A stretch of 64,000 nucleotides of DNA from Natranaeroarchaeum sulfidigenes (GTDB taxonomy: Archaea > Halobacteriota > Halobacteria > Halobacteriales > Natronoarchaeaceae), in NCBI RefSeq assembly GCF_017094485.1, contig NZ_CP064786.1, forward strand, positions 2,108,001 to 2,172,000, written 5' to 3'. This document shows positions 49,596-50,003 of the stretch, piece by piece. A program made the position numbers and the translations under genes. Within the stretch, counting starts at the first letter, position 1. Every line of letters begins with the position of its first letter. The notes beneath the pieces are model-generated. The model searched no databases, was not told the origin of the DNA, and was given only the letters and a program-made list of their open reading frames with translations.

Positions 49596-50003
49596 ATGGC
49601 TAACTCGATGGCTGAACAGCTCCAGCGAGATATGCAGTGTGAGGGGCTACTGGAGTGTATTCACGGACTCAAGCAACTCGACAAGGAGTGTTACAGAGTG
49701 CTCGTGGAGAGCGAGGAACCGCTGACGATCGACGAGGTCGGCGAGCAGGTCGACCGGGAGCGCTCGACAGCGTATCGGGCGATCCAGCGCCTGCTCAAGA
49801 GTGGCTTCATTCAGAAAGAGCAGGTCAACTACGACGACGGTGGCTACTACCACGTCTACTACCCCACGGACCCCGACCAGATCGCCGACGATATGCAGCG
49901 GATGCTCAACGACTGGTACGCGAAGATGGGCCAGCTCATCCAGGAGTTCGAGGACAAATACGAGAACGCCGCCGAGGAACCCGTGATGACCGGGGAACCG
50001 TAA
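49596..50003 (+). CDS. winged-helix regulator with three clustered cysteines
   Basis: ATG 49596 gives 135 residues; ATG 49569 would add nine. An N-terminal helix carries Cys15, Cys21 and Cys32 (MQCEGLLECIHG and DKECYRVL), unusual for haloarchaeal proteins. A TrmB/MarR-like winged helix follows (about 38-95: EPLTIDEVGEQVDRERSTAY, then QRLLKSGFIQKEQVNYDDGG), and a C-terminal helix (QIADDMQRMLNDWYAKMGQL) suited to dimerisation. Cysteine pairs are how BigR, SqrR and CstR sense persulfides, though those belong to other folds or families. It lies at the end of the sulfur region, next to thioredoxin; its sensing role is inferred. Confidence 0.85.
   Translation: MANSMAEQLQRDMQCEGLLECIHGLKQLDKECYRVLVESEEPLTIDEVGEQVDRERSTAYRAIQRLLKSGFIQKEQVNYDDGGYYHVYYPTDPDQIADDMQRMLNDWYAKMGQLIQEFEDKYENAAEEPVMTGEP

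Follow-up and report, generated by a model that had tools for sequence, protein, structure and literature searches.

In the haloarchaeon Natranaeroarchaeum sulfidigenes, a small winged-helix protein with three N-terminal cysteines is encoded at the end of an island of sulfur genes. This locus raises the question of what the protein, here called the regulator, senses through its cysteines and which genes it governs. The bacterial persulfide sensors BigR and SqrR (ArsR family) and CstR (CsoR family) are cysteine-pair regulators of sulfide-oxidation genes. In the first-pass annotation, the regulator was proposed to be a new persulfide sensor that had arisen on a TrmB/MarR-like fold as a separate invention. 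Here, it was analysed within a 64-kb window (contig NZ_CP064786.1, positions 2,108,001 to 2,172,000) and in homologous loci of other archaeal genomes. In searches of the open-licence literature, no haloarchaeal regulator of persulfide homeostasis came up, nor any paper on a haloarchaeal persulfide dioxygenase. The reading favoured below, to which we give a probability of roughly 0.6, is that the regulator is an autoregulated homodimeric dithiol switch of the OxsR/arCOG02242 group, governing a sulfane-sulfur regulon via the inverted repeat GTATTG-N11-CAATAC.

The regulator and its genomic setting

Translation of the open reading frame bears out exactly three cysteines, at positions 15, 21 and 32 of a 135-residue protein that begins MANSMAEQLQRDMQCEGLLECIHGLKQLDKECYRV. 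Cysteine had been described as scarce in these proteins, and it does account for only 0.59% of residues across 15 neighbouring proteins; at this frequency, the chance of finding three cysteines within 18 residues of a 135-residue protein is about 0.003. Pfam TrmB (PF01978) matches the regulator with 61.1 bits against a gathering cut-off of 25.6 and is the sole family above its cut-off; similarity to Pfam MarR is weak and stays under its threshold, and the matches listed for the regulator include no model of the ArsR family. This one TrmB match corresponds to a single winged-helix domain, without a sugar-binding C-terminal domain. An AlphaFold2 model (pLDDT 84) comprises two N-terminal helices and a winged helix followed by a long C-terminal helix, a TrmB/MarR-like arrangement and not the all-helical fold of CsoR. 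The three cysteines had been assigned to one helix just before the winged helix, which is correct for C15 and C21 (helix 4–23) but not for C32, which lies in the next helix (27–38). The nearest solved structures, by sequence and fold, are MM_1094 of Methanosarcina mazei (PDB 3R0A) and AbfR2 of Sulfolobus (6CMV), and no sulfur role for either was reported in the literature searched.

As originally described, the gene stands at the end of the sulfur island and adjoins thioredoxin (Table 1). This synteny recurs, most of 80 homologous loci having several island genes within 10 kb, and some of these loci are accompanied by extra regulator copies. Besides the tabulated genes, the island holds an aminotransferase class V gene, with cysteine desulfurase similarity below the cut-offs. 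The regulator gene and its candidate operator are tied to a probable persulfide dioxygenase and to sulfurtransferases. In a few loci (L028, L035, L040, L041, L044, L046 and L054), two regulator copies lie within a few kb of each other; each copy has a C-x5-C motif, and most also have their own operator-like site.

Table 1. Genes, motif and operator-like sites of the sulfur island (window coordinates)
Feature	Coordinates	Strand	Remarks
DsrE2-like sulfur carrier gene	40563..41147	-	profile match
tusA sulfurtransferase gene	41144..41389	-	profile match
Operator-like site upstream of tusA-dsrE2	41404..41426	-	exact TATTG-N11-CAATA; downstream of TATA-like box, near start site
Operator-like site upstream of persulfide dioxygenase gene	41559..41581	+	just upstream of BRE/TATA-like box
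Rhodanese-metallo-beta-lactamase fusion, probable persulfide dioxygenase (pdo)	41620..42822	+	named from domain content
Two YeeE/YedE-type sulfur transport half-genes	42829..43848	+	profile match
osmC	43885..44304	-	profile match
Two overlapping operator-like matches upstream of osmC	44334..44365	.	found with matrix
Usp-like (universal-stress-protein) gene	45209..46054	-	translation judged by eye; kept beside regulator
Operator-like site upstream of usp	46081..46103	-	overlaps TATA-like box
Operator-like site upstream of small ORF-tauE-kefC group	46290..46312	+	found with matrix
tauE sulfite exporter	46539..47561	+	profile match
KefC-type Na+/H+ exchanger with TrkA domains	47650..49509	+	profile match
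Operator-like inverted repeat, regulator's own promoter	49543..49565	+	CCATTGCACAATATTCACAAAAC; abuts BRE/TATA-like CAAAACCTTATG; 19.8 bits; conserved in orthologues
Regulator ORF	49596..50003	+	135 aa; single-domain TrmB-type winged helix; C15/C21 invariant, C32 variable
C-x5-C motif, C-E-G-L-L-E-C	49638..49658	+	codons 15-21; C21 = OxsR C24
Operator-like site upstream of thioredoxin	50066..50088	+	found with matrix
Thioredoxin	50117..50479	+	profile match; adjoins regulator

A conserved cysteine pair and its relation to OxsR

Alignment of orthologues, the check suggested with the original proposal, upholds two of the cysteines and not the third, which has been lost in many lineages. Among 90 close haloarchaeal copies, taken as regulator homologues from loci of the searched genome contigs, C15 and C21 are each conserved in 90/90 and C32 in 88/90; the corresponding counts among divergent haloarchaeal copies are 20/21, 20/21 and 2/21. 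Relatives from other members of the phylum have C15 and C21 in 18 of 18 cases, with C32 not kept. A sensor built on three cysteines was therefore rejected, the divergent copies being without C32, as was the notion that C-x5-C is a haloarchaeal novelty, since the pair is present in non-haloarchaeal relatives. These alignments identify the conserved unit as C-x5-C in the helix preceding the winged helix, with C32 dispensable across the family. In 35 aligned haloarchaeal rows, C15, C21 and H23 are all invariant, as would suit a sensor of metal or another ligand that uses the pair together with the haloarchaeal His23. Such a sensor is nevertheless highly improbable, because the non-haloarchaeal relatives that retain both cysteines do not retain His23 and no metal transporter or metal chaperone was recognised in the island.

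OxsR (HVO_2970) of Haloferax volcanii belongs to the TrmB family and works as a thiol-based regulator; its C24 is needed for recovery from hypochlorite and makes an intersubunit disulfide, and the protein recognises a CG-rich motif, activating from upstream sites and repressing from downstream sites (PMC9426492). Haloarchaeal OxsR homologues possess a single N-terminal cysteine that aligns with C21 (the OxsR C24 column) and mostly have Phe at the C15 column. Alignment and phylogeny place the regulator as a paralogue of OxsR within the OxsR-type thiol-switch TrmB group, arCOG02242. In the tree, the C-x5-C proteins and OxsR fall into separate clades (support 100/99), so the regulator is not orthologous to OxsR; with a short alignment, several long branches and a midpoint root, the tree does not fix the direction of cysteine change. 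The genome of N. sulfidigenes also has a separate OxsR-like gene, without the second cysteine. Both groups have a single winged-helix TrmB domain, a short N-terminal helix, a cysteine at the same column and a thiol-switch role, in the regulator a predicted one. They differ in that OxsR combines one cysteine with a CG-rich motif and hypochlorite, whereas the regulator clade combines C-x5-C with the AT-rich GTATTG-N11-CAATAC and a predicted sulfur regulon. Some OxsR-like paralogues (L126, L127 and L128) are without the C24 cysteine and carry C-x-C (ICVC or ICLC) in the next helix, possibly an alternative thiol or metal site.

A counterpart of the regulator has already been described in part. HVO_1360 of H. 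volcanii, a member of arCOG02242 that is 28% identical to OxsR, has C15 and C21 and carries the UniProt accession D4GXQ1, was published as a modelled, possible heterodimer partner of OxsR, without a regulon, operator or sulfur role (PMC9426492); no other paper in the literature searched names it. Judging from that description and its matching cysteine positions, HVO_1360 is probably the orthologue of the regulator. Since N. sulfidigenes encodes both proteins, the published proposal could extend to it: the regulator would then act mainly as an OxsR partner, forming heterodimers via OxsR C24 and C15/C21 and altering OxsR site choice. We regard this as improbable, given that the regulator has its own symmetric, autoregulatory candidate operator unlike the OxsR motif and is present in genomes for which the search for OxsR gave no match (e.g., G002, G017, G020 and G032).

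In the homodimeric switch favoured here, the N-terminal helix would contribute to the dimer interface, as judged from the homologues OxsR and MM_1094. The latter makes intersubunit disulfides C6–C17; its C17 aligns with C21 of the regulator, but it has Val at the C15 column and uses C6 instead. Because C15 and C21 are spaced i, i+6 in one straight helix, an intra-helix disulfide was set aside as unlikely, and a link between subunits is favoured.

This placement also overturns the idea of a separate invention, as OxsR, with its C24 at the C21 column, MarR-fold sulfane-sulfur sensors (PMC11211675) and the archaeal SurR are already known; a sulfur-responsive role for the regulator is plausible despite its known family. 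The bacterial MarR-family members that respond to sulfane sulfur are MarR, MexR, MgrA and OhrR (PMC11211675, PMC9495516), which have a winged helix and a reactive cysteine in common with the regulator, but only weak sequence similarity (Pfam MarR below cut-off). SurR, an ArsR-family regulator of Pyrococcus and Thermococcus, responds to elemental sulfur via a cysteine switch; it belongs to another family than the regulator and has a different regulon, which covers hydrogen production and S0 metabolism.

A candidate operator in the island promoters

The CAATATT site ascribed to the regulator gene is indeed present, at 49551, and the heptamer is enriched in the window (10 observed vs 1.7 expected), with 8 of the 10 in a 9.5-kb stretch; the genome total is 106 in 3.04 Mb. 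However, comparison of orthologous promoters revealed CAATATT to be merely one arm of a 23-bp inverted repeat, GTATTG-N11-CAATAC, and it was rejected as an operator because it is too short. The promoter element common to the regulator and the sulfur island is this longer repeat. Orthologous promoters were tested for TATTG-N11-CAATA with at most one mismatch, with other spacings and dinucleotide shuffles as controls. Matches were found in 26/26 tusA, 77% of usp, 54% of trx and 52% of pdo promoters (91% of pdo promoters at two mismatches); for these four promoters, shuffles gave 0.1–1.5% and other spacings far less than N11. The score was 0 for dsrE, yeeE, tauE and kefC, genes internal to transcription groups. 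Promoters of the regulator itself match the strict pattern weakly (6% at one mismatch or fewer, 24% at two), a consequence of a right arm that reads CACAA or CAAAA.

A 23-bp matrix (consensus GTATTGTgCaaTAtatACAATAC) was trained on other genomes, with this genome left out. Its best 12 matches in the window all fall in island promoters, namely those of tusA, pdo, osmC, usp, the tauE leader, the regulator and thioredoxin; some matches overlap or are both strands of one palindrome, so the 12 amount to seven promoters. As the training set consisted of orthologues of the same promoters, this ranking reflects conservation and not binding. Shuffled windows reached maxima of 9 to 20 bits, and for the weakest island matches (13–16 bits) it is therefore their position and conservation, not their score, that counts. 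Outside the island, an isolated palindromic CAATATTG occurs at window positions 11256–11263, and AT-rich sequence lies at about 11.7–12.1 kb.

Elsewhere in the genome, the only exact site outside the island (676801–676821) is directly at the start of a DsrE-family gene (L087:1146–1499), and a DsrE-like gene in another genome (L222) has the site too. A one-mismatch site (1246555–1246575) lies about 30 bp before a CoA-disulfide-reductase-like flavoprotein gene (L096:1552–2895), the product of which is possibly a persulfide or CoA-persulfide reductase. Other genomes have exact sites ahead of thioredoxin, usp-like and DsrE-like genes. Many of the remaining one-mismatch matches in the genome fall inside genes or have no sulfur gene beside them, and look like chance occurrences.

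The element also accompanies the regulator outside the haloarchaea. In Methanosarcinia-type homologues, 6 of 8 promoters carry TWTTG-N11-CAA, while other spacings from 6 to 16 give one match, and the recognition helix (mostly RERSTAYR) is common to these homologues and haloarchaea. The recognition helix differs in relatives encoded in thioredoxin operons, and no obvious operator-like site was seen in their promoters. Judged from protein types, some non-haloarchaeal loci appear Methanosarcinia-like and the thioredoxin-operon loci Archaeoglobi-like. In the non-haloarchaeal loci L173, L175, L177 and L180, the C-x5-C regulator gene directly follows a radical-SAM-like gene that encodes a CNLRCPYC motif and is itself mostly preceded by a thioredoxin gene; this operon may constitute a separate thiol-linked system. 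The location of some homologues beside these genes, and not beside sulfur oxidation genes, fits a general thiol signal.

Among haloarchaea, the regulator is present in 189 of 194 genomes. All five regulator-less genomes are without tusA and, at the threshold used, without pdo; like the other co-occurrence counts, this one is correlative and ignores phylogeny. Use of these five as a test of the tusA promoter was dropped, as they have no tusA. The exact operator is missing from four of the five, versus present in 15/15 genomes with the regulator; the fifth (G005) has three exact operator-like sites, none of which adjoins a recognised sulfur gene. At the threshold applied to pdo, this gene is missing from 24 of the 194 genomes, the majority of which retain the regulator, pointing to a role wider than pdo. 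A different factor might bind the element, with the regulator gene merely one of its targets, but this is the least probable of the readings weighed here, since haloarchaea and Methanosarcinia-type relatives alike retain the element in the promoter of the homologue itself, and the element is mostly missing where the regulator gene is missing. The regulator itself very probably binds GTATTG-N11-CAATAC.

Signal, mode of action and significance

The family of the regulator, the conservation of C-x5-C, the conserved promoter element, the predicted regulon and the co-occurrence pattern are read directly from genome sequences. Homology to OxsR strongly suggests that the regulator is a thiol switch, and its targets point, with moderate confidence, to sulfane sulfur as the physiological signal. 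In the proposed mechanism, a regulator homodimer would bind the 23-bp inverted repeat at the core promoters of a sulfane-sulfur regulon comprising, in the island, tusA-dsrE2, pdo-yeeE1-yeeE2, osmC, usp, tauE-kefC, trx and the regulator gene and, elsewhere in the genome, the dsrE-like and CoA-disulfide-reductase-like genes. As persulfides or polysulfides rise, C15 and C21 would become persulfidated, and a disulfide or polysulfide would link them. The hold of the dimer on DNA would then change, most simply by release from operators at the BRE, TATA box or start site, and genes for sulfur transfer, oxidation and export would be induced for as long as thioredoxin and the dioxygenase had not returned the switch to its initial state. 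In working through a cysteine pair, this model resembles BigR/SqrR and CstR, although the families differ and the pair is placed differently in those proteins.

A repressor released by persulfide would most simply account for all site positions, and repression may tentatively be preferred to activation. The geometry, judged by eye, varies among targets: sites are just upstream of the BRE at pdo, against it at the regulator's own gene, over the TATA box at usp and close to the start site at tusA. Activation of some targets, as by OxsR, may therefore occur, and a dual mode is conceivable, considering that OxsR is an activator at upstream sites and a repressor at downstream ones.

The main rival concerns the signal. 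The same protein, operator and regulon could respond to oxidant or disulfide stress (hypochlorite, peroxide or a low thiol pool), as for OxsR, with sulfur genes induced because persulfides and thioredoxin buffer oxidation. The equivalent cysteine serves OxsR in hypochlorite sensing, sites also occur at trx, osmC and the CoA-disulfide-reductase-like gene, and thioredoxin operons house some non-haloarchaeal relatives. However, the strongest and most constant sites belong to sulfur-relay genes (tusA and dsrE-like), the OxsR motif is different and CG-rich, and the genome keeps its separate single-cysteine OxsR-like gene. An oxidant signal thus appears fairly unlikely, and sulfane sulfur is the preferred one.

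On a wider scale, a sulfane-sulfur-sensing C-x5-C branch of TrmB proteins could go back to the common ancestor of haloarchaea, Methanosarcinia-type archaea and related lineages, with the own-promoter operator kept from methanogens to haloarchaea and OxsR a single-cysteine sister specialised for oxidants; we put this history at slightly short of even odds. What is new here is a named regulator with a candidate operator and target list, its thiol-switch family being already known. A gene carried by nearly all of the haloarchaeal genomes sampled thereby gains a predicted operator and a short list of targets, and H. volcanii, with the probable counterpart HVO_1360, offers a genetic model for it. 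The comparison with OxsR suggests that one thiol-switch scaffold has been split between oxidant sensing with one cysteine and, probably, sulfur sensing with two.
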